Assembly (NCBI RefSeq): GCF_029223255.1
Contig: NZ_JARHUC010000007.1
Span: 248,001-312,000 of the forward strand
Source: Albimonas marina
GTDB taxonomy: Bacteria; Pseudomonadota; Alphaproteobacteria; Rhodobacterales; Rhodobacteraceae
Direction of reading: 5' to 3'
Length of the DNA stretch: 64,000 bases
Within the stretch, counting starts at the first letter, position 1, and every line of letters starts with the position of its first letter. Both the position numbers and the translations under genes were made by a program. Shown here one piece after another: positions 40,606 through 50,771 of the stretch. The notes under the pieces were generated by a model. It was not told where the DNA came from. It ran no database searches and was given only the letters and a program-made list of their open reading frames with translations.

Positions 40606-41529
40606 TCAGGCCATCGCCGGCTGGGGCACCTTGCGGGCGAACATCATCATCGCGCCCGTGGGCGCGGCCCCGGCCCGCGCCTGCAGCTTCAGCGAGGCCG
40701 CGTTCCCGGGCCGCACCAGCGAGAAGGCGTGGGTCGCGCCGCGCGCGGCCATGGCGCGCAGCCCCTCGCGGGTCATGTGGTCGGCGAGGCCCGTGCCCCA
40801 GTGGCTGCGGGCGATCGCCATCATGCTGTAGAAGCCCATCTGCGGGCTGGTCTCGGCCACGCCCACCACGCGGCCGCTGGCGGCGTCGCGCGCCAGCAGC
40901 CACAGGCTGTCCGGCGCGGCCATCAGGGCGGCGACGGCGGGGCCGTCGAGGCGGGGCCACACGCCCTCGCGGCGCATCATCCGCCAGGAGAGGTCGGCGG
41001 CCTCGGCCTCCGCCGCGGGATCGCCGCCGTCATGGGGGGCGACCGCCACGCCCTCGGGCGGGGCGGAGGCGGGCTGGTCGAGCGGCAGAGAGACCACCAG
41101 CAGCCGCTGGAGGGGGGCGTAGCCCGCGGGGCAGGGCGGGTCGCCGTCGTCGGGCGCGGGGATCGTGGCGGTCAGCAGCCCCACGCCCAGCCGGCGGGCG
41201 AGCGCGTCCACCTCGGGGAGGAGGGCGGCGTCCAGCCCTGGCGGCGCGTCCGCGAGCGGCAGGGTCAGGGCGGCGCGGCCGTCGAGGGCGACCATCGGCC
41301 TCTCGTCCACGATCGTCAGCGCGACGAGCCGGCCCGGGCCGCCGGATCCCGCCTGCGACGGGCGGGAGGCGTCGCGGGTCAGCAGCACACGGCCCCGCGG
41401 GTCGCGAAGGCGGCGGGCCCACCAGTCGCCCAGCGAGGGGGCGCTCTCGAAGATCGGGGCGCAGGCCTCCAGCGCCTCGGGCGCATCCTCGGGGCGCGCC
41501 GGGGCGAAGCGGAGATCGGGGTCGCTCAT
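40606..41529 (-). CDS. GNAT-like N-acetyltransferase family protein
   Basis: A 307-residue protein. The C-terminal ~140 residues look like a GNAT fold: a strand with RVVGVAETSPQ, an acetyl-CoA-binding-like SHWGTGLADHMTREGLRAMAARG (about residues 245-268), then the classic ending SLVRPGNAASLKLQARAGA. The N-terminal half (LRFAPARPEDAPEALEACAPIF) resembles a second GNAT-like start, so the protein may be a tandem or degenerate double GNAT. Substrate unknown. ATG 41529 has only a weak GAGA upstream. It lies immediately downstream of the Cys-repeat gene on the same strand (134-nt gap), so involvement in that locus is possible but unproven. Confidence 0.62.
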   Translation of the reverse strand: MSDPDLRFAPARPEDAPEALEACAPIFESAPSLGDWWARRLRDPRGRVLLTRDASRPSQAGSGGPGRLVALTIVDERPMVALDGRAALTLPLADAPPGLDAALLPEVDALARRLGVGLLTATIPAPDDGDPPCPAGYAPLQRLLVVSLPLDQPASAPPEGVAVAPHDGGDPAAEAEAADLSWRMMRREGVWPRLDGPAVAALMAAPDSLWLLARDAASGRVVGVAETSPQMGFYSMMAIARSHWGTGLADHMTREGLRAMAARGATHAFSLVRPGNAASLKLQARAGAAPTGAMMMFARKVPQPAMA

Positions 41530-41663
41530 CGGGGTCTCGCGCCGGCCGGGGACGGGACGGACCCGGCATCGCGCGACGCCGGGTCCGGACGGCGCGCGCC
41601 GCGCCGGGAGGATCGGTCGGGCGGTCCGCCGCGGCGCGGGCGCGGCGGCGGACCGGGCCGGGC

Positions 41664-42464
41664 TCAGCCCGTGGCCCTGAGGGCGGCCGGCGCCTCGGCC
41701 TCGGTCTGCGTCGACCGGCAGCCGCAGGGGACGCAGGGGATCCCGCAGGGCGCGGAGCCGGCGGCGCGGCCGTCGAGATCCTCGGCCGAGGCCTCGGCCG
41801 TCTCCGGCGTCTTGCAGATGACGCAGCAGAACACGCAGGGCGCCGAGGCGGCGGTCCTGCCGTCGAGGTCTTCGGCCGCGACGCTTTCGGGCGCCTTGCA
41901 GAAGCCGCAGCAGAAGGCGCAGGGCGCGGAGGCGGCGGCGCGTCCGTCGAGGTCTTCGGCCGCTGCGGTCTCGGGCGTGCGGCAGGCGCAGGGGACCATG
42001 CAGAAGCCCGCGGCCGCGGCGCGCCCGTCGAGATCCTCGGTCGCCACGCTCTCGGGCGCGCGGCAGAAGACGCAGGGGACGCAGGGCGCCGCGGCGGCGG
42101 TCCTGCCGTCGAGATCCTCGGCGGAGGCGTTGTCGGGCGCCTTGCAGAAGACGCAGCAGAAGGCGCAGGGCGCGGAGGCGGCGGCGCGTCCGTCGAGGTC
42201 CTCGGCCGCGGAGGTCTCGGGCGCGCCGCAGAAGGCGCAGGGGACTACGCACGGCGCGGAGGCGGCGGCGCGTCCCTCGAGGTCCTCGGCCGCGACGGCC
42301 TCGGGCGCGCCGCAGAAGGCGCAGGGGAAGGCGCAGGGCGCCGAAGCCGCGGCGCGGCCGTCCAGCTCCTCCGCCCCTTCGGGCGCGTGCGGCGAGGCCG
42401 CGGGCGGCGGCGCCGCCACGGCGCGGTCGACCCTGAAGGTCGCGGCGATCAGGTGGTGGGTCAT
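41664..42464 (-). CDS. Cys-rich eight-repeat protein, putative multi-core RiPP precursor
   Basis: A 266-residue protein. A 31-residue N-terminus (MTHHLIAATF then an Ala/Pro-rich part) precedes eight repeats of 27-30 residues (a longer last one) at 32-59, 60-87, 88-115, 116-142, 143-169, 170-197, 198-227 and 228-266. Each repeat opens with E-E/D-L-D/E-G-R-(A/T)-A-A/G, continues to a core of three or four Cys spaced by one to three residues (CAFPCAFC, CAFCCVFC, CVPCVFC, CMVPCAC, CGIPCVPCGC), and mostly ends in (A/T)P(E/D). Total 28 Cys, no His/Asp metal pattern, no transmembrane segment. GGAGG lies 9 nt before ATG 42464. The DUF697 gene lies immediately upstream on the same strand, and the divergent YcaO and SagB-type genes begin 0.9 kb away. 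The constant part looks like a repeated recognition/cleavage element and the variable Cys segment like a core to be converted to thiazol(in)es. No characterised homologue recognised; a metal-binding protein is the alternative. Confidence 0.75.
   Translation of the reverse strand: MTHHLIAATFRVDRAVAAPPPAASPHAPEGAEELDGRAAASAPCAFPCAFCGAPEAVAAEDLEGRAAASAPCVVPCAFCGAPETSAAEDLDGRAAASAPCAFCCVFCKAPDNASAEDLDGRTAAAAPCVPCVFCRAPESVATEDLDGRAAAAGFCMVPCACRTPETAAAEDLDGRAAASAPCAFCCGFCKAPESVAAEDLDGRTAASAPCVFCCVICKTPETAEASAEDLDGRAAGSAPCGIPCVPCGCRSTQTEAEAPAALRATG
41667..42371 (-). repeat. Eight tandem ~84-bp coding repeats
   Basis: In-frame tandem repeats of 81-90 bp (117 bp for the last) encoding the EDLDGRAAASAPC-type unit. 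Constant blocks correspond to LDGRAA and APC; variable blocks encode the Cys spacers. Identity is high enough to suggest recent duplication and possible copy-number variation between strains. This is a coding repeat, not a CRISPR array. Confidence 0.85.
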
Positions 42465-42580
42465 CTTGCAGGTCCTCCCCCCATGGGATGCCAGTCGCGC
42501 CGAACCGCCGGCGCGGGGCGCGGCCGCCGGGCGGACGGCGGCTCTCGAGACGGCGGCGGCGGGCGCGCCCGCCGGGCCGG

Positions 42581-43138
42581 TCAGCTCGCCTCGGTCTTCA
42601 CGACCTCGGCGTCCTCCGCCTTCGACGTGTCGCGTCGGCGGATCGCGGACTTCACCGCGGATTTGCCCTTCTCGACCTCGGCCGCGAAGCGGCTGCTCAT
42701 GGCGGCGGGATCGAGCGACTCGATCGTGCCGCCGCGGGCGAAATGCCAGTCGAACACCCGGCCCACGGCCCAGGTGATCGCGCCGTTCAGGGCCGGCAGC
42801 GTGGCCACCGCCAGCAGCGTCCCCACCCCCGGCACCGCCTTGGCGGCGGAAGCGACCGGATAGCCCAGGAGCCCCCGGGGCAGGCCCACGGTCAGCAGGG
42901 TCGAGATCACCGTCTTGACCGCCTGTTCCGAGAACCTGACGCCGCGCGCCTCGCACAGCTGCGCGACCATGCGCACCTGCACGGTCGTCGCCGCGGCGAC
43001 GTCCACCGCGGGGATCGGGACCAGCCCCGCCACCGCGGCGTAGGCCACGTGATTCCAGATGATCCGCGCACTCTCGGCGTCCGCGGCGGAGGTCGGCGCA
43101 GGCGCGTCCCCGGACTTGGCTTCGATCTCGGCCGTCAT
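42581..43138 (-). CDS. DUF697-family protein
   Basis: A 185-residue protein. The centre (about residues 25-150) matches the DUF697 pattern: an amphipathic start WNHVAYAAVAGLVPIPAVDVAAATTVQVRMVAQLCEARG, then Gly-rich hydrophobic segments VISTLLTVGLPRGLLG and AVPGVGTLLAVATLPALNGAITWAVG. The last ~35 residues are charged. DUF697 domains usually follow GTPase domains; here it stands alone. AGGGGGGA lies 6 nt before ATG 43138. It heads the minus-strand pair with the Cys-repeat gene (116-nt gap) and is divergent from the YcaO gene. Function unknown; membrane association likely. Confidence 0.72.
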   Translation of the reverse strand: MTAEIEAKSGDAPAPTSAADAESARIIWNHVAYAAVAGLVPIPAVDVAAATTVQVRMVAQLCEARGVRFSEQAVKTVISTLLTVGLPRGLLGYPVASAAKAVPGVGTLLAVATLPALNGAITWAVGRVFDWHFARGGTIESLDPAAMSSRFAAEVEKGKSAVKSAIRRRDTSKAEDAEVVKTEAS

Positions 43139-43387
43139 GCCGTCCCCCCTGGTCGGACGCAGCGACAGCTCAGGCGAGGCGGGAAGCCTTGCCGAAGCGT
43201 TCTCCTTTACGGAGAGTTCCACAGCTCTGACGCTTGGTAAAGAACAATCGCATGAAAAATCGTTCACATTGAAGCACTTCGCGATTGCGGCGCCGGCGAG
43301 GTTTGGCTTGCCAGCGCGGTCTTCGCGGATTTACGCAAGGAAAGGGGAGGGCGCCTGGGCGCCGGACGAGCGGAGGCGCGACACGGC
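43139..43387. promoter_or_regulatory. Divergent promoter region of the putative RiPP locus
   Basis: A 249-nt gap between the DUF697 and YcaO starts. The stretch 43200-43290 is clearly AT-richer than its surroundings (GGTAAAGAACAATCG, GAAAAATCG), so both promoters probably lie there. TTGAAG at 43268 and minus-strand TTGTTC near 43250 are possible -35 words without clear -10 partners. A small GGCG/CGCC hairpin (43351-43364) and GGAGG precede the YcaO start. Confidence 0.4.
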
Positions 43388-45688
43388 ATGGCCACGGACC
43401 TGGCGGACAAGCACCTGGCGATCGCGCCGCATTTCACCGTCCACCGGGAGGCGAGCGACCGCTTCCTGCTGTTCGCCGAGGGGCGAAGCCTGCGCCTGCG
43501 CGGCGACCTCTACGCCCGCCTCCTCCCCCGCCTGACCGGAGAGCGCACCGGCGCCGAGATCCTGGCCGAAATCGCCGCCGTCCCCGGCGCCGCCGCCGAC
43601 GCGGGCGAGCAGGCGCGCCGCACGCTCGTCAGCCTCTACGAGGCGGGGCAGGTGGTGGCGCTGGCCCCCGGCGCGGACGTGAACCGACAGGCCTTCTGGT
43701 CCGAGGGCGGCCTGCCCCCGGCGGAGACCGAGCTGCGCCTCGCCGGCATCCGCGTCGCGGTGGCGGGGCTGGGGCGCAGCGCCGCCGCGGGCTCGGCCGG
43801 GGCGGGGGCGCTGACGGCGATGCTGATGGGCTCGGGCTTCGCGCCGGGGGACCTGCGCTCGGCCGAGCTGGTGGTGGCGCTGGTCGACGACTACCTCGAC
43901 CCCGCGCTGCAGGACCTCGCCGCGGCGCTGGGCCCGGACCGCGCCTGGCTGCCGATGCGCCCGGGCGGGCGGCGCGCGCTGATCGGGCCGCTGATGGGGC
44001 CGGGCTTCGGCGGCGCGGCCGGGGGCGGGTGCCTGACCTGCCTCGCGCGCCGCATGGCCGAGCATCGGCCCAACGACGCGCTCGCCCCCGCGGGCGTCGC
44101 CGGCCCCCGCCCCGCCCGCGCCTGGCTGCCTGCCTCGCTGGAGCTGGCGCGCGCGGCCGCGACGCTCGAGATCACGCGCATGGCGCTGGAGCAGGGCGAC
44201 GCGCTCTCGGGCGCGCTGCTGGCGCTCGACGGGGCCACCGGCGCGCGGGAGACGCACCGCCACTGGACCTTCCTCGACTGCCCCGACTGCGGCCCCGCCG
44301 CGCCGCCCGCGCCGGCCGCCGCCGCGCCCTTCGCGCTGGGGGAGGAAGCCTCGGTCGACAGCGAGATCGGCGGCTGGCGCGCCTGGACGGCCGAGCAGGC
44401 CCTGGCCCGGCTGGAGCCGCTGGTCAGCGACCTGACCGGCATCGTCAGCGACATGGTCCCGGGCCACGACCACGACCGCGGTCTCTACGTCTTCAACGCC
44501 TCCCAGGCCAACCGCGGCGGCGTCGACTTCACCCGCAACCGGCAGGCGGGCAAGGCGGGCTCGGCCAGCGGCAAGGGCCTGACCGAGACGCAGGCCCGCG
44601 TCTCCTGCCTCGCCGAGGCGGTGGAGCGCTACGGCTGCGGCTGGTCGGGGGCCGAGCCGCGCATCCGCGCCCGGCTGGCCGACCTGGGCGAGGCCGCGGT
44701 CCACCCCCACGCGCTGCTCGGCTTCTCCGAACGCCAGTACGCCGAGCGGGAGCGGATCAACGCGACGAGCGGCCCCCTGCACCACGTGCCGCTGCCCTTC
44801 GACGAGACGAAGGAGATCGAGTGGACGCCGGTCTGGTCGCTGACGCACGATACCACGCGCTGGCTGCCCACGCGCTTCCTCCATTACGGCTACCGGCCGC
44901 GGAACGTGCCCGGCGACCACGCCTTCGCGCTGGGCGATTCCAACGGCTGCGCCGCGGGCGCGACCCCGGCCGAGGCCGCGCTGCAGGGCCTGCTGGAGGT
45001 GATCGAGCGGGATGCGGTGGCGATCTGGTGGTACAACCGCCTGCAGCATCCGGGCATCGCGCTCGAGGGGATCGACGACGCCTTCGTCGAGCGGATGCTG
45101 GCCGTCTACGCCGGGCGCGGGCGCACCGTGCACCTGATCGACGTGACGACAGACGTGGGCATCCCCGCGGCCGTCGCCGTCTCGGCGATGGCGGAGGGGG
45201 GCGGGCGGATCCTGATGGGCTTCGGCGCCCATTTCGACCCCCGCGTCGCGGCCGAGCGGGCGCTGACCGAGCTCAACCAGATCATCGCCTTCGACCGGCC
45301 GGAGTCGGCGGAGGCCGAGACGCAGGAATTCGACGGCCACCTCGCCCGCTGGATGGAGCGCGAGACGCTGGAGACCCAGCCCTGGCTGCGCCCCGCGCCC
45401 GGCCCGCTGCGCGACGTGCGCGCGATGGCCCGGCCGCCGGCCCCCAGCCTGCGGGGCGCGGTGCTCGAGGCGCGCGACCGGCTGGCCGCCTGCGGGGTGG
45501 AGCTGATGGTCCACGACTATGCGCGCGGCGACCTGCCGTTGAGCTGCGTGAAGGTGGTGGCGCCGGGGATGCGCCATTTCTGGTCCCGGCGCGGCCCGGG
45601 ACGCCTGCTCGAGGTTCCTGCGAAGATGGGCTGGCGCGACCGCCCCGCGCGGGAGGACGAGCTGAACCCGATCGACTTCGTCCTGTGA
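43388..45688 (+). CDS. Fused azoline-forming cyclodehydratase (RRE, E1-like and YcaO domains)
   Basis: A 766-residue protein. Residues about 10-95 look like a PqqD-type RiPP recognition element (SLRLRGDLYARLLPRLTGERTGAEILAEI). Residues about 100-340 are the Ocin-ThiF/E1-like partner, with a zinc tetrad of Cys215, Cys218, Cys298 and Cys301 (CLTC, CPDC). Residues about 360-766 are the YcaO domain, with GLTETQARVSCLAEAVERYGC and SNGCAAGATPAEAALQGLLEVIERDAVAIWW carrying the Glu/Arg ATP-binding residues. The C-terminus (NPIDFVL) lacks the PxPxP tail of many YcaO proteins. Such fusions activate amide oxygens with ATP to cyclise Cys/Ser/Thr into azolines. Probable substrate: the Cys-repeat protein at 41664-42464. 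The SagB-type gene follows 61 nt later. Confidence 0.9.
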   Translation: MATDLADKHLAIAPHFTVHREASDRFLLFAEGRSLRLRGDLYARLLPRLTGERTGAEILAEIAAVPGAAADAGEQARRTLVSLYEAGQVVALAPGADVNRQAFWSEGGLPPAETELRLAGIRVAVAGLGRSAAAGSAGAGALTAMLMGSGFAPGDLRSAELVVALVDDYLDPALQDLAAALGPDRAWLPMRPGGRRALIGPLMGPGFGGAAGGGCLTCLARRMAEHRPNDALAPAGVAGPRPARAWLPASLELARAAATLEITRMALEQGDALSGALLALDGATGARETHRHWTFLDCPDCGPAAPPAPAAAAPFALGEEASVDSEIGGWRAWTAEQALARLEPLVSDLTGIVSDMVPGHDHDRGLYVFNASQANRGGVDFTRNRQAGKAGSASGKGLTETQARVSCLAEAVERYGCGWSGAEPRIRARLADLGEAAVHPHALLGFSERQYAERERINATSGPLHHVPLPFDETKEIEWTPVWSLTHDTTRWLPTRFLHYGYRPRNVPGDHAFALGDSNGCAAGATPAEAALQGLLEVIERDAVAIWWYNRLQHPGIALEGIDDAFVERMLAVYAGRGRTVHLIDVTTDVGIPAAVAVSAMAEGGGRILMGFGAHFDPRVAAERALTELNQIIAFDRPESAEAETQEFDGHLARWMERETLETQPWLRPAPGPLRDVRAMARPPAPSLRGAVLEARDRLAACGVELMVHDYARGDLPLSCVKVVAPGMRHFWSRRGPGRLLEVPAKMGWRDRPAREDELNPIDFVL

Positions 45689-45749
45689 CCCGCCCCGCCC
45701 CCCTCTCGGCCCCCCCGGCTCGGCGCCCCGCGCTCCGGAGCCCCGCGTC

Positions 45750-47429
45750 ATGAGCGGCGACGAGCCGGAGCGTCCCGGCGCGGAGGCCGCGGGATCGGCC
45801 GGCGCCGGTCGGACGGACGGGGAGGTCGTGCGCCTCGCCTTCGCCCGCCCGCCCGCCGCGGGCCAGGCCGCGACGCGGCCGGGCGGCGGGATGGGCGGCG
45901 CGGATCCCGGCTGGCGGCTGCACCTGGGCCTGCATCCCGACGTGACCTCGGCGCAACTGCGCGACGGCGCCCTGAGCCTGACCCTGGTGCAGGGGCTGAA
46001 GGCCGAGATCCCCTGGCGCGACCCGGCGCTGGGCCGCGCGCTGGCGGCGCTGGCCCGCGGCGGGGCGCCCTGGTCGCGCTTCGCCGCGCTCTGCGCGGGC
46101 GAGGCCGAGCCGGGGGCGCCCCCCACGGCGGGGCGCTCGGGCGCGGGCGAGACGCCCGAGGCGGCGGCCCGGCGGCTGGGGGCCGAGGCCTGGACCGCGC
46201 TCCTGCATCTCAGCCGCTCGCGCCTGCTGGCGTGGTGGTACGGCGCCCCCGACCTGCGCGCGGTCGAGATCCTGCCGCTCAGCGGGCGCTACGCCCCCCT
46301 GTCGACCGTGCCGGCGACGCCGGACCTGCGGATCGCCGAGGGCGCGGTGCTGGCATGGGCCACCTCCGGGCTGCTGCTGGAGGTTCCGGACATCGACGCG
46401 GTGGTGACGGTGACGCCCGCCGGCCTGCCGCTGGTGGGCGCGATCATGGGCGCGGGGCGGCCCGGCGCGCCGCCGCTGCCCGCCGCCGCCCGCGCGGCTT
46501 TCGCCGCCGCGGGGATCCTGCGCCCGCCGCCCGATCCCGCGGCCCCGGACCCGCCCGCCGCGGACTGGACCACCTGGGACCGGCTCGCCCATCGCCTGAC
46601 CCGGGACGTGACGCGGATGCACGCGCCGATCCCGGGCCTTCCCGAGCGGGACAGGGACGATTCCTTCGCCGGCCCGCCGCCCGCCTGGGCGCGTCCGGGC
46701 CTGCCGCGCATCGCGCTGCCGCGCCCGGCGCCCGACCTCCCCTCCCGCCCCCTCGCCGAGGTGCTGGAGCGTCGCCGCTCCCGCCGGGAGCCGGGGGCGC
46801 GGCCGCTGACCCTCGCGGCGCTGGGCGCGCTTCTGTGGCGGGTCGCGCGCCGCCGCGACGACCGGCGCGACGAGCTTCCGGGCGCCGTGCTGCGCAACCT
46901 GCCCGGCGGGGGCGCGAAAGGGGACGTCTCGCTCTACGTGGCGGTGGGGCGCTGCCTGGGCCTGCCGCGGGGCTTCTACGGCTACGACGACGTCGCCCAC
47001 GCGCTGACCCGCTTCCCCGACGCGGGGCGAAGCGCCATCGGCGAGGGCCCTGCGGGGCGCGACGCGGGGCCGGGCGAGGCGGATCCGCTGGCCGCGGTCC
47101 TCGCGCAGGCCGAAGGGGCCATGTCGGCCGGGGCGCCGCCCGACGCGGTGGTGGTGATGGGCTGGCGGCCGGGCGCGCTGGCGCGGCGCTACTACTCCAA
47201 CGCCTACCGGCTGGGCCTGATGCACGCGGGCGTCCACGCGCTGGGCCTCGCGCTCGCGGCCGAGGACCTGGGCCTCGCCGGCTGTCCGCTGGGCCTGGGC
47301 GAGCATCGCCACTTCGCCCGCCTGACCGGCGTCGATCCGCTGGTCGAGACCGCGCTCGCCGAATTCGCGCTCAGCGGGCGGGACGACGCTGCAGAAGCAG
47401 CAGGGCCAGCAGAACCGCCAGGGGCGTGA
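45750..47429 (+). CDS. SagB/ThcOx-type FMN dehydrogenase
   Basis: A 559-residue protein. The nitroreductase-like domain occupies the C-terminal half: RRRSRREPGARPLTLAALGALLWRVA near residues 345-370, GDVSLYVAVGRCLGLPRGFYGYDDVAHALT near 390-420, and YYSNAYRLGLMHAGVHALGLALAAEDLGLAG near 480-510. The N-terminal half is a less conserved segment seen in long SagB proteins. In azole RiPP pathways this enzyme oxidises azolines to azoles with FMN. Follows the cyclodehydratase on the same strand; its 3' end overlaps a small convergent gene by 59 nt. Confidence 0.85.
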   Translation: MSGDEPERPGAEAAGSAGAGRTDGEVVRLAFARPPAAGQAATRPGGGMGGADPGWRLHLGLHPDVTSAQLRDGALSLTLVQGLKAEIPWRDPALGRALAALARGGAPWSRFAALCAGEAEPGAPPTAGRSGAGETPEAAARRLGAEAWTALLHLSRSRLLAWWYGAPDLRAVEILPLSGRYAPLSTVPATPDLRIAEGAVLAWATSGLLLEVPDIDAVVTVTPAGLPLVGAIMGAGRPGAPPLPAAARAAFAAAGILRPPPDPAAPDPPAADWTTWDRLAHRLTRDVTRMHAPIPGLPERDRDDSFAGPPPAWARPGLPRIALPRPAPDLPSRPLAEVLERRRSRREPGARPLTLAALGALLWRVARRRDDRRDELPGAVLRNLPGGGAKGDVSLYVAVGRCLGLPRGFYGYDDVAHALTRFPDAGRSAIGEGPAGRDAGPGEADPLAAVLAQAEGAMSAGAPPDAVVVMGWRPGALARRYYSNAYRLGLMHAGVHALGLALAAEDLGLAGCPLGLGEHRHFARLTGVDPLVETALAEFALSGRDDAAEAAGPAEPPGA

Positions 47430-47541
47430 GCAGCAGCGACAGCAGCAGGCAGCCCCCGAAGCCCGCCAGCGTCGTGCGCCCCAGCCAGGCCGCGCCCAGC
47501 GCGCCGCCGATGTAGAGCAGCCACAGAATGTAGGGAAGCAT
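47371..47541 (-). CDS. 56-residue membrane protein
   Basis: Short gene: ATG 47541 with GGAGGA 5 nt upstream, stop at 47371. The product opens MLPYILWLLYIGGALGAAWLG and continues with a second hydrophobic stretch rich in Leu (CLLLSLLLTPLAVLLALLLL), ending QRRPAR. Two transmembrane segments with a basic C-terminus are likely. It is the last gene after the exporter and SPFH genes on the same strand (135-nt gap) and overlaps the end of the convergent SagB-type gene. No family recognised; an accessory membrane peptide is a fair description. Confidence 0.6.
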   Translation of the reverse strand: MLPYILWLLYIGGALGAAWLGRTTLAGFGGCLLLSLLLTPLAVLLALLLLQRRPAR

Positions 47542-47676
47542 CGCGTCCTCCGGCTCCGGCGCGTCGCGGCCCCCTCGGCGGAGGCCGCCTCGATCCGCGG
47601 GGCCCGCCGCGCCGCGAGCGGGCTCCGCCCTTCTCCTTCGGCCTCGCCCTCAGGCGGGGCGCGTCGTCCCTCCGCC

Positions 47677-48990
47677 TCAGTCCGTCGGGTCCACCGCGCG
47701 CGGCGGCGCGGAGCCGTCGGGCGCGGGCTGCGCGCCGTTCTGGGGGATCGCGCCGCCGGCCGGTTCCCCGCCCGGGCGGGCGACCGAGGCGGCGGGGTCG
47801 TCGCCGTCGCTCCCGCTTCCGCCGCGCAGGCCGCCCGGCGGGGCGGGCATCCCGTCGCCGGGCTCGGCCGGGGGGGCGGAGCCGTCGGCGGGCAGCGGGC
47901 CGCGCGGCGGCAGCGCGCCGAGGGTGCGGGCGCCGCGCGAATCCACCTGCTGCTGAAGCTCGGGGAACAGCATCGGCATCTCGCTCCAGCTTGGCAGCGT
48001 GTTTGCCTGGTCGGCGCCCATCTCGGGGATCGGCTGGGCGGTGGCGGGCAGGGCGCCCAGCTCCCCGCCCAGGATCAGGGGCATCGCGTCCTTGCCGTTG
48101 CCCACCACCACCACCTTGGCGTTGGGCGACTTCGAGAGCTGCACCGTCGCCTCGATCCCCCGCCAGGTCAGCAGGGAGTCGTTCAGCGCCTCGGAGACGA
48201 TGGTGTAGAACGAGCGGATGCCGATCGCCTCGATCCGGCGGCGCTCGGCCTCCTGCTTCTCGGACATGATCCGGAACTCGTAGGAGGCGGCGAGCTGCTC
48301 CTGCGCCAGCTTCTGGTCGATGGCCTGGGTCACCTGCTCGGGCAGGTAGATGCCGCGCACGGCCACGTCCAGGAACTCGATCACCTCCGCCGCGGCGTGG
48401 GAGGTGATGTCCTCGATCACCTCCTGCTTCAGCTGGTCGAAGTTGATCGAGTAGAGCTCGTTCGAGGTGTGGTTGGCGACCGCATGACGGATCGCGGCGA
48501 CCGAGACGGGGCCCACCACGCGGGCGCGGTATTCCGGCCCCACGCCCTTCTGCAGCTCGCCCAGCGTGGCGTAGCGGGCGCGGTAGATGACGTTGCCCTC
48601 GATGCGCACCGACATGCCCTCGGAGGACAGCGCCTCGATCGAGAAGGGGAACTGCTGCACGCGCAGCTCGTAGATGTAGATCCGGTCCCAGGGCAGCTTC
48701 AGCGCATAGCCCTCGGGCAGCGGCTCGCCCAGGTCGGTGCCGCCGGCCAGCAGCTTGTAGCGCACCCCCGCCTGGCCCGGCAGGATCTGCACGAAGATCA
48801 CGTTCCACAGGATCAGCAGCACGATCGAGATCAAGCTCGTTAGCCCCACCGCCCAGGCGACGATGCGCTCGCTCCGCGAGAACAGCGGCGGCTTCTCCCG
48901 CCGGTCGCGGCGGCGCCGGGCGTCGGAGGGGGGCGGGCCCGGGGGGGGCGGGCCCGAGGGATCGGGGGCGGGGGTCCTGGCGTCGGTCAC
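47677..48990 (-). CDS. SPFH/Band 7-domain membrane protein
   Basis: A 437-residue protein. A Pro/Arg-rich cytoplasmic start is followed by one transmembrane segment (about residues 45-68, VAWAVGLTSLISIVLLILWNVIF). The SPFH domain (about 70-270; EGYALKLPWDRIYIYELRVQQ, VRIEGNVIYRARYATLGELQ) leads into an Ala/Glu/Gln helical stretch (AIDQKLAQEQLAASYEFRIMSEKQEAERRRIEA). The last ~110 residues are low-complexity Pro/Gly/Ala. This is HflK/prohibitin-like architecture, which organises membrane microdomains or regulates proteases. Start overlaps the exporter stop by 4 nt, so the two are co-translated, an unusual pairing. Confidence 0.87.
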   Translation of the reverse strand: MTDARTPAPDPSGPPPPGPPPSDARRRRDRREKPPLFSRSERIVAWAVGLTSLISIVLLILWNVIFVQILPGQAGVRYKLLAGGTDLGEPLPEGYALKLPWDRIYIYELRVQQFPFSIEALSSEGMSVRIEGNVIYRARYATLGELQKGVGPEYRARVVGPVSVAAIRHAVANHTSNELYSINFDQLKQEVIEDITSHAAAEVIEFLDVAVRGIYLPEQVTQAIDQKLAQEQLAASYEFRIMSEKQEAERRRIEAIGIRSFYTIVSEALNDSLLTWRGIEATVQLSKSPNAKVVVVGNGKDAMPLILGGELGALPATAQPIPEMGADQANTLPSWSEMPMLFPELQQQVDSRGARTLGALPPRGPLPADGSAPPAEPGDGMPAPPGGLRGGSGSDGDDPAASVARPGGEPAGGAIPQNGAQPAPDGSAPPRAVDPTD

Positions 48991-50618
48991 GCGCGCTCTC
49001 CCTCCAGTCGTCGGTCCTCGACGATGCGGCCGTCGGCGAAGCGGATCACCCGGTCGGCGCCGTCGTGGTATCGGTCGTCATGGCTGACCACGATCAGGGT
49101 CCGGCCCTCGCGCTTCAGGCGGGGCAGGATCTCGCGGTAGAGCCGTTCGCGGAACTCCTGGTCCTGGTCGGCGGCGACCTCGTCCAGGATCAGCACCGGG
49201 CGCCGCTCCAGCAGCGCCACGGCCAGCGCCAGGCGCTTGCGCTGCCCGGTCGAGAGCTCGGTGGTCGAGAAGGCGCCGTCCACGAAGCGCACCTTCCCCC
49301 CCAGCCCGAGATCCGCGAGCAGGTCGTTCACCTCCTCGGGCGTGCGATCCTCGAGCCCGTAGAGCCGGTCGAAGAGGTGGAAGTCGGTGAAGACCGAGCT
49401 GAACAGCCCCCGCCACGCCGCCGCCTGCGCCGGCCCCACCGGCCGCCCGTCGAGCTCCAGCGCGCCCGTGTCCGGCGGATAGAGCCGGCACAGCAGCTTG
49501 AGGAACGTCGACTTGCCCGAGCCGTTGCCCCCCACCACGAACAGCGTCTGGCCCGCCGGCACGCTCAGGTCCACCGGCCCGATCGAGAACACCGGCGCGC
49601 CCTGCGCGTCGCGGTAGGTGAAGGTCGCGGCCCGCACGCCGAGCTCGGAGAAGCCGGCCGGCGCCTCCCCGGTCTCGACGCCCGCCGAGGCCGCCTCGAC
49701 CCTGCGCTCGGCGCTCTCGAGATCGTCGAGCGCGAATTCCGCCCGCGCGACCAGCGGGATCGAGCGCAGGATGATCTCCACCGTCGAGAGCAGGAAGATC
49801 GCCACGTAGATCGACTGCACGATCACCTCCTGGTCGCCCACGAAGGGCGGCAGCACGAAGGCGATCGAGGCCAGCATCACGTAGAAGAACCCGTAGGAGA
49901 TCGAGATCCCGCGATGGATCCGCGCCGCCGCCTGCGCCCGCGCGTCGCGATAGTCGGCCGAGGCGGGCGAGAGATGCTCGTGCTCCAGCGCGGCGCCGCG
50001 GGGGCGGTGCAGCCGGGTCTCCTTGAAGCCGTGGATCACGTGGCCCAGCAGGCGCAGGAAGCCGGTCTCGGCCTGCGACGCCTCGATCAGCGCGGCGCGC
50101 ACGCTGCGCTGGGAGATGGTGTAGAGCACCGCCGAGGCGCCGACGATGCCGGCCAGCGTGAAGAACACCACCGGCGAGAGCATCAGCGTGTAGAGCCCCC
50201 CCAGGACCAGCGATCCCAGCGCCGCGTAGCCCGGCAGCACCACCATCGCGGCTTCCGAGATCAGGGCGGTGTTGCGGGTCAGGGCGTCGTAGATGCGCCC
50301 GCCGCCGATGCGCTCGAAATCCGAGTACTCCAGGCGGCGCAGGCTCTCGACCAGGCGCATCCGCATCCCGTCGAGCATGGTCTCGACCGCGTCGACGCTC
50401 ATCCGCGCGCCGACCAGCTGGCCCGCGACCACGCCCATCGCCGAGAGCACGAACAGCGCCACGTCCGCCCCGCGCACCGTGTAGCCGGCGCCGCCGGAGA
50501 TCACGTTGTTGACCACCGCGAGCACGCCCACGGGGCTGACCATGGCGATCGCCAGCACGCACAGGAGCCACAGCCGTCTGCCTTCGGCCGCCCCCCAGAC
50601 CACGGATGCGAATCGCAA
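48987..50618 (-). CDS. PvdE/SyrD-type cyclic-peptide export ABC transporter
   Basis: About 543 residues, transmembrane and ATPase domains in one chain. Six transmembrane segments lie in the first ~310 residues. The ATPase has Walker A GGNGSGKST, signature LSTGQRKR and the family-specific LILDEVAADQDQEFRERLY, close to the DEWAADQDP block of PvdE/SyrD exporters, then VVSHDDRY. The start is ambiguous: TTG 50618 is best placed behind GGGAG (5-nt spacer), but the frame is open to TTG 50714 (575 residues). Operon with the SPFH gene; convergent with the azole RiPP genes, so it is a candidate exporter for their product (inference). Confidence 0.85.
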   Translation of the reverse strand: MRFASVVWGAAEGRRLWLLCVLAIAMVSPVGVLAVVNNVISGGAGYTVRGADVALFVLSAMGVVAGQLVGARMSVDAVETMLDGMRMRLVESLRRLEYSDFERIGGGRIYDALTRNTALISEAAMVVLPGYAALGSLVLGGLYTLMLSPVVFFTLAGIVGASAVLYTISQRSVRAALIEASQAETGFLRLLGHVIHGFKETRLHRPRGAALEHEHLSPASADYRDARAQAAARIHRGISISYGFFYVMLASIAFVLPPFVGDQEVIVQSIYVAIFLLSTVEIILRSIPLVARAEFALDDLESAERRVEAASAGVETGEAPAGFSELGVRAATFTYRDAQGAPVFSIGPVDLSVPAGQTLFVVGGNGSGKSTFLKLLCRLYPPDTGALELDGRPVGPAQAAAWRGLFSSVFTDFHLFDRLYGLEDRTPEEVNDLLADLGLGGKVRFVDGAFSTTELSTGQRKRLALAVALLERRPVLILDEVAADQDQEFRERLYREILPRLKREGRTLIVVSHDDRYHDGADRVIRFADGRIVEDRRLEGERA

Positions 50619-50771
50619 CGCCGCTCCCTTCGCGTCCCCTCTCGTCGCCCGTGGCCGCGCCGGCGGGGCCGGACGGCGCTTACGCGCGGACAACCCCTGA
50701 ACCCTCCCCTTCAAGCGCCTCGCAAGTCAACCTTTTCCCGCGGGGGGCGAGCGGGGGAGGGCGGGCGCCCG

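Follow-up and report, generated by a model that had tools for sequence, protein, structure and literature searches.

The window analysed here, a stretch of 64,000 nucleotides from Albimonas marina (contig NZ_JARHUC010000007.1), carries a gene for a cysteine-rich protein of repeated units close to genes for a fused cyclodehydratase and a SagB-type dehydrogenase. This locus is probably a pathway for a multi-core azol(in)e RiPP (ribosomally synthesised and post-translationally modified peptide), and it would constitute a new branch of such pathways outside the cyanobacteria. The genes, the repeats, their spacing, the synteny with a second Albimonas species and the shared branch of YcaO enzymes have been read directly from the sequence, and the multi-core azole reading, which an original prediction had already put forward for this DNA, has been strengthened since the enzymes match those of cyanobactin pathways (TruD/LynD and CyaGox) and repeat precursors have been found only in genomes with one YcaO branch. 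The central features are the following.

41664..42464, minus strand: repeat protein, proposed multi-core precursor (266 residues, 28 Cys, eight units)
42378..42464, minus strand: putative N-terminal leader segment of the same protein (29 residues; MTHHLIAATF kept in A. pacifica)
41667..42377, minus strand: its eight motif-core units (an ExLDGR-type block with three or four Cys each) and C-terminal tail
43388..45688, plus strand: fused cyclodehydratase with RiPP recognition element (RRE), E1-like and YcaO parts (766 residues; TIGR03604 and TIGR03882 over cut-off)
45750..47429, plus strand: SagB-type flavin mononucleotide (FMN) dehydrogenase, an oxidase (559 residues; TIGR03605 77.6 bits, just under the cut-off of 78.4)

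Translation and a count of the units have borne out the composition that had been claimed for the repeat protein (266 residues, eight repeats, 28 Cys, three or four in each), and the first seven units follow one another at a spacing of 26-31 residues. The gap of 0.9 kb to the enzymes corresponds to divergent start codons lying 0.92 kb apart, the repeat gene being on the strand opposite to the YcaO and SagB-type genes and a DUF697 gene lying in between, neither of which had been mentioned before. The repeat gene is a real one, because a syntenic ortholog is present in A. pacifica (NZ_FOQH01000001.1, a locus of 22 kb designated L005; 8600-9061, 153 residues, four units, 16 Cys), because residues 1-10 (MTHHLIAATF) are identical in both Albimonas with all four base changes at third positions and synonymous, because the ribosome-binding stretch GGGGGGAGGA upstream is conserved between them, and because the GC content at third codon positions is 0.95. 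A comparison of repeat number between relatives, which had been suggested as a check, has given eight units in the window and four in A. pacifica, and the mean unit identity of 0.68 within each Albimonas species versus 0.53 between the species fits unit arrays remodelled through duplication or conversion. No Pfam or NCBIfam family has been found in the window protein at E up to 1, a nitrile-hydratase-like leader included, and two matches to PHROG families of unknown function have been obtained (E 0.006 and 0.02).

The enzymes closely resemble those of known heterocyclising systems. Residues 10-762 of the cyclodehydratase, the RRE part included, align to TruD (E 3.7e-116) and LynD (6.1e-116), while the alignment to MusD falls into two stretches, of which the better covers 242-763; these three are the best solved matches and place the enzyme among the TruD/PatD-type heterocyclases, with an E1-like C domain and a YcaO D domain recognised by TIGR03882 and TIGR03604, respectively. 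The presence of the RRE domain follows from the alignment to TruD and LynD from residue 10 onwards, and its binding of a leader is predicted. The YcaO protein of A. pacifica is 87% identical to that of the window. For the SagB-type oxidase, the closest solved relatives are CyaGox entries (5lq4, E about 5e-17), and its relative in the genome G903, introduced below, passes the TIGR03605 cut-off with 119.6 bits and matches the Pfam family ThcOx (cyanobactin oxidase), as expected for the FMN dehydrogenase of an azole cluster. The assignment of a fused RRE/E1-like/YcaO gene next to a SagB-type gene in the original prediction is therefore upheld by these matches.

For the distribution of both components, samples of 295 genomes of the family, 390 of the order, 385 of the class and 224 of the phylum have been searched. 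Direct searches with the repeat protein have found it in Albimonas only: a plain search of the family sample matched the own genome and G070 (E 1.6e-4), the latter rejected for four internal stops, and a unit profile built from Albimonas only (A1) matched 12 genomes of the order sample at E<=0.01, the own one strongly and the other 11 with single weak matches judged by a crude look to be chance. A search of the class with the YcaO protein has given 15 of the 385 genomes, including the own, at E<=1e-40, and the three nearest of them, the alphaproteobacterial genomes G903, G822 and G960 (46-49% identity), encode repeat proteins that are built in the same way. G822 has a protein of 195 residues with seven Cys units near relatives of the YcaO, SagB and GNAT genes. 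G903 has a protein of 633 residues with 26 units and 58 Cys, near SagB and GNAT relatives, and G960 has one four-core gene near its YcaO gene and a second four-core gene on another contig, its YcaO locus holding in addition a third, frame-broken repeat gene, three DUF697 genes and relatives of the ABC and Band_7 genes. In these precursors, no match to Pfam or NCBIfam has exceeded its cut-off (Pfam alone for the second G960 gene). Their matches below the cut-offs have been ignored as low-complexity, as have the PHROG matches of the G903 protein (to E 2e-4, about 37 residues, a virion structural protein; three of unknown function). The window repeat protein found no match among plasmids, the G903 protein none among plasmids and phages, and viral contigs contained no relative of the window YcaO.

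The repeat precursors are tied to one branch of YcaO enzymes. A profile built from 16 units (A4) has matched seven of the 385 class genomes, with tandem matches in four (own, G822, G903 and G960) and single weak ones in three; all four tandem-unit genomes carry a close YcaO, and the other 11 of the 15 class YcaO carriers were not among the A4 matches, the two samples being equal in size and apparently the same, with unmatched genomes not all listed. In the phylum sample, strong matches came from the own genome only. A4 has also been run on ten chosen genomes (seven family YcaO carriers, two other Albimonas and G967), where tandem matches occurred in A. pacifica only and one weak match each in G078 and G029 was set aside; the single weak matches in G667, G682, G710, G1155 and G1157 were likewise set aside, the fetched stretches containing no tandem-unit open reading frame (ORF). 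The seven carriers belong to 13 other family genomes with YcaO matches at E<=1e-20, of which the remaining six match the YcaO domain alone and more weakly. In a tree of the YcaO domain with 30 rows, G822 and G960 entered as partial pieces, the five carriers of repeat precursors are separated from the other rows by a branch (support 100/98), followed by G967 and G228. No repeat precursor has been found with the 25 other YcaO relatives; for the named rows (cyanobacteria, actinobacteria and others), this absence is local and covers the fetched flanks. G967 has relatives of the SagB, Band_7, ABC and small membrane-type proteins, and A4 detects no repeat precursor there. Homologues of the repeat protein thus occur in YcaO-carrying genomes in five of five cases (in G903 on another contig), where a prevalence without YcaO neighbours had been named as counting against the prediction. 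A second short precursor near the YcaO gene had been named in the same sense; here the check has covered the A. pacifica locus rather than the window, and a scan for ORFs of at least 30 residues with 5 Cys in 40 residues has returned there the repeat protein and an overlapping ORF of 1164 residues only.

Each core stands behind an acidic motif that ends in Leu, the block reading ExLDGR in the window and [LIV]SDExL in the relatives, and outside Albimonas the start of a unit can be written as [LIVM]-[SG]-x(1-2)-E-x-[LIMF]. All 42 units outside Albimonas (7 in G822, 26 in G903, 5 and 4 in G960, the frame-broken gene excluded) have a hydrophobic residue five or six positions ahead of the motif Leu. 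This residue seems to be part of the motif and not of the preceding core, since in each relative even the first unit, which directly follows the leader, carries it. Of the 53 Cys-bearing units, 50 have their first Cys 9-12 residues past the motif Leu and the other three (all from G822) have it at 13-14, despite unit lengths that vary from 19 to 40. Counting distinct units, 46 of 49 fall within 9-12 residues, whereas 2000 shuffles of the tails placed 8.5 units there on average and never more than 19. The number of Cys per unit ranges from one to five in the relatives, so that single-Cys cores exist, and the G960 precursor terminates in an additional block, SDEELAAR, that no core follows. The first residue of PatE to form a ring lies about ten positions past the second Leu of its leader motif. 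The motif outside Albimonas resembles, on sequence grounds, the L(X)4L element bound by the RRE of LynD, to which the PatE leader attaches as a strand according to the available part of PMC12455567; within Albimonas, the motif is degraded.

The genes discussed so far belong to a block of about 10 kb that is common to both Albimonas (40606-50738), comprising GNAT, repeat protein, DUF697, YcaO, SagB, small protein, Band_7 and ABC genes, and blastn matches between the window and the 22 kb A. pacifica locus are confined to 40625-50738. The shared unit is evidently larger than had been described before, and its remaining members are the following.

40606..41529, minus strand: GNAT acetyltransferase (307 residues; PF00583 E 1.1e-6, over cut-off)
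42581..43138, minus strand: DUF697 protein (185 residues; PF05128 E 4.2e-8, over cut-off; 84% in A. pacifica)
47371..47541, minus strand: small membrane-type protein (56 residues; counterparts in A. pacifica at 84% and in the G967 locus at 36%)
47677..48990, minus strand: Band_7/SPFH protein (437 residues; PF01145 E 5e-22; related proteins at the loci of G967 and G960)
48987..50714, minus strand: ATP-binding cassette (ABC) exporter of cyclic-peptide type (575 residues; TIGR01194 287.0 bits versus a cut-off of 286.2)

A GNAT ortholog of 62% identity adjoins the A. pacifica repeat gene, and relatives of 26% lie near the G903 and G822 repeat genes. Relatives of the ABC exporter have been found in the G960 (46.5%) and G967 (41.6%) loci, and three DUF697 relatives lie near the G960 repeat genes, where a look-alike of the 56-residue protein has also been noted, judged by eye only. 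Presence and absence of partner genes in G822, G903, G960 and G967 refer here and below to the fetched stretches around the loci, in which a DUF697 relative has not been seen in G822, G903 or G967. An AlphaFold2 model of the DUF697 protein is all helical (mean predicted local distance difference test score, pLDDT, 71), and a Foldseek comparison of it with the PDB has given no match at E 0.001 or better. Between the two Albimonas, the ratios of nonsynonymous to synonymous divergence are about 0.63 for SagB, 0.60 for GNAT, 0.46 for Band_7, 0.33 for YcaO, 0.25 for ABC and 0.16 for DUF697; the value of about 0.74 for the precursor is rough, because the repeats had to be paired and it depends on the repeat alignment. 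The fast divergence of precursor, SagB and GNAT looks as if tailoring enzymes follow changing cores.

In the mechanism that we infer for these genes, the repeat protein would serve as a precursor in which a short leader at the N-terminus is followed by eight units, each of an acidic block and a Cys core. The RRE of the TruD/LynD-like enzyme would bind a block and thereby bring the first Cys, some ten residues further along, into a YcaO active site. Thiazolines would form there, the enzyme would go on to the other cores, and the SagB/CyaGox-like protein would oxidise the thiazolines to thiazoles. A protease would free the peptides, whose new N-termini the GNAT protein may acetylate, and the ABC exporter may secrete them together with the Band_7 and small membrane-type proteins; the DUF697 protein may act as a membrane partner or self-protection factor. 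GNAT and ABC neighbours would fit the release of several small peptides. Within this pathway, docking of the RRE on each block has about an even chance of being correct, favoured as it is by the spacing, by the L(X)4-5L-like form of the block in three genomes and by the lack of a leader shared across the families. That a docking motif has been copied with each core, every unit then being its own leader-core module with a register of about ten residues and the array growing from 4 to 26 units, is a tentative proposal that falls a little short of an even chance. Docking on each block and docking on a single leader may each hold in different members.

Several observations weigh against this picture. 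Precursor and YcaO of G903 sit on different contigs, a stretch of 19.5 kb around the latter containing none of the other block genes, and the YcaO gene itself is split into three ORFs in G960 (L087 8676-11061, 11148-11891) and two in G822 (L085 8622-11017), which, together with the frame-broken repeat gene of G960, suggests assembly errors or decay. The partners are mixed: a SagB or GNAT relative has not been seen in G960, nor DUF697, Band_7 or ABC relatives in G822 or G903. No protease has been recognised in the seven block genes scanned (all of the eight except that of the 56-residue protein). The upstream hydrophobic residue is present in three of eight window units and none of four A. pacifica units, and thus missing in five and four, respectively, and in 25 of the 26 units of G903 the hydrophobics are separated by five residues instead of four. 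For the pair MprE7/MprC of the NHLP class, L(X)4L alone is described as insufficient (PMC12455567, in its accessible text). A third Albimonas genome, G295, is without YcaO, repeat protein and DUF697, and this co-absence has been rejected as evidence of linkage because Band_7 is missing too, so that the genome shows absence of the whole block and not a linkage of its parts.

The best-supported alternative follows cyanobactin logic, in which the RRE would dock once on the leader, at L-IAAT-F, and the blocks would serve as protease or spacing signals like the recognition sequences RSII and RSIII; we regard it as plausible, though below an even chance. The segment MTHHLIAATF, unchanged between the Albimonas species at the protein level, is evidently under strong selection and holds an L(X)4F, which speaks for this alternative and against docking on each block. 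In the passages available of PMC12455567, L(X)4L is the motif bound by the RRE, and replacement of Leu in MprE7 by Ala lost the product, whereas Val or Phe restored it; in cyanobactins, RSI directs heterocyclisation and RSII and RSIII flank every core (PMC4663559, likewise in part). Observations that bear on such an arrangement are the repeated Leu motif before the cores, the core-less end block of G960 and the possible L(X)4F of the Albimonas leader, and most Albimonas blocks are without the first hydrophobic. Against a single docking site stand the 9-12 residue spacing, which recurs in units of five genomes, the L(X)4-5L-like pattern of all blocks in G822, G903 and G960, and the size of the G903 protein, in which one leader would need to reach cores about 600 residues off.

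If the protein stayed uncut, the product would act as a single molecule, a poly-thiazole chain with as many as 28 rings. The lack of a recognised protease and the rather even spacing of the units would agree with this, but the core number varies (4, 7, 8 and 26), the G903 cores differ strongly among themselves, and the neighbouring GNAT and ABC genes, the latter of peptide type, point to small peptides, so that we consider an uncut chain unlikely. Least probable is that the Cys-rich protein binds metal or has a structural role and only happens to lie beside an azole RiPP locus: the CxxC-like spacing within units and several membrane-type genes nearby would be in keeping with it, whereas AlphaFold2 has given no fold (mean pLDDT 32.7, a weak test with an alignment of only two rows), units with one to five Cys, single-Cys cores among them, are ill-suited to a metal site, and the repeat protein accompanies one YcaO branch even where it is unlinked, as in G903.

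Compared with known systems, the proposed azole pathway shares with the cyanobactins (PatE/TruE, TruD/LynD, ThcOx/CyaGox) a fused RRE-E1-YcaO enzyme aligned end to end, a related oxidase, and precursors with several cores and constant blocks around each. It differs from them by up to 26 cores versus one to four (PMC4663559, as far as its available text goes), by an acidic Leu motif before each core in place of one RSI, and by GNAT, DUF697, Band_7 and ABC neighbours. No PatA/PatG-type subtilisin protease or macrocyclase has been recognised in the seven block genes scanned, the rest of the genome not having been searched, and because of this the locus should not be filed as a cyanobactin, though it may work much alike. 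The thiovarsolins (VarA) likewise combine a YcaO pathway with a repeating precursor; the accessible portion of PMC6511847 describes them as N-acetylated APR tripeptides without a specific protease in the cluster, and they differ in being thioamides made by YcaO-TfuA in actinobacteria from up to five repeats with tripeptide APR cores, a TfuA partner having been found in none of the seven block genes scanned. Multi-core microviridins (AMdnA) have several cores and, in their pathways, an N-acetyltransferase and an ABC transporter (PMC5934393, seen in part), and are distinguished by lactone/lactam rings formed by ATP-grasp enzymes. NHLP azole RiPPs of the MprE/MprC type have an RRE-bearing YcaO cyclodehydratase and a leader that contains L(X)4L, according to what is accessible of PMC12455567, and differ by a long folded leader before the core; the NHLP-looking example in L030 ends in CCCCC without repeats.

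The sections available of a 2018 paper call multiple cores rare and list cyanobactins, cyclotides, orbitides, ustiloxins and phomopsins (PMC5934393). No description of the present repeat family has been found among the matches listed in the open-access literature, most subscription papers lying outside its coverage, and DUF697 and YcaO appear together in no paper of the open-access literature searched. The way in which a single modifying enzyme deals with many cores in one chain, and the range of leader dependence, are open questions of RiPP biosynthesis; they would become testable with natural precursors of 4, 7, 8 and 26 units, in which the distance from motif to Cys is nearly fixed. If docking on each core were true, the unit would be a ready module for azole peptide arrays, with the precursor freed from a single leader. 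The partners of the branch recur without being uniform, with SagB and GNAT in G822 and G903, DUF697, Band_7 and ABC in G960, and all of them in Albimonas, and the architecture points to a little-explored route to many modified peptides from one gene.

Some further observations concern the surroundings of related YcaO genes. In G903, a gene near the YcaO gene (L084 5026-5916) is taken by eye to be DUF692-like and has a DoxX-like ORF close to it, and in G967 an M1 aminopeptidase gene (L086 10929-13562) adjoins the YcaO gene. The NHLP-looking precursor in L030 (7770-8033), recognised by eye, belongs to G209, of the same family as the window, and lies near a related YcaO, as does in G078 a presumably flavin-dependent halogenase-like gene (L024 11429-12724, by eye). 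On a Chlamydiae metagenome contig, a related fused YcaO occurs twice in facing orientation (L007 439-2598 and 3947-6097), the copies enclosing a SagB-like stretch, and a Thalassospira marina plasmid (L045 3086-13869) carries adjacent genes for LanM, a 'thiocillin family RiPP', a thiazole/oxazole-modified microcin (TOMM) cyclodehydratase, a P450-annotated protein that includes a SagB-like part, and an S53 peptidase.

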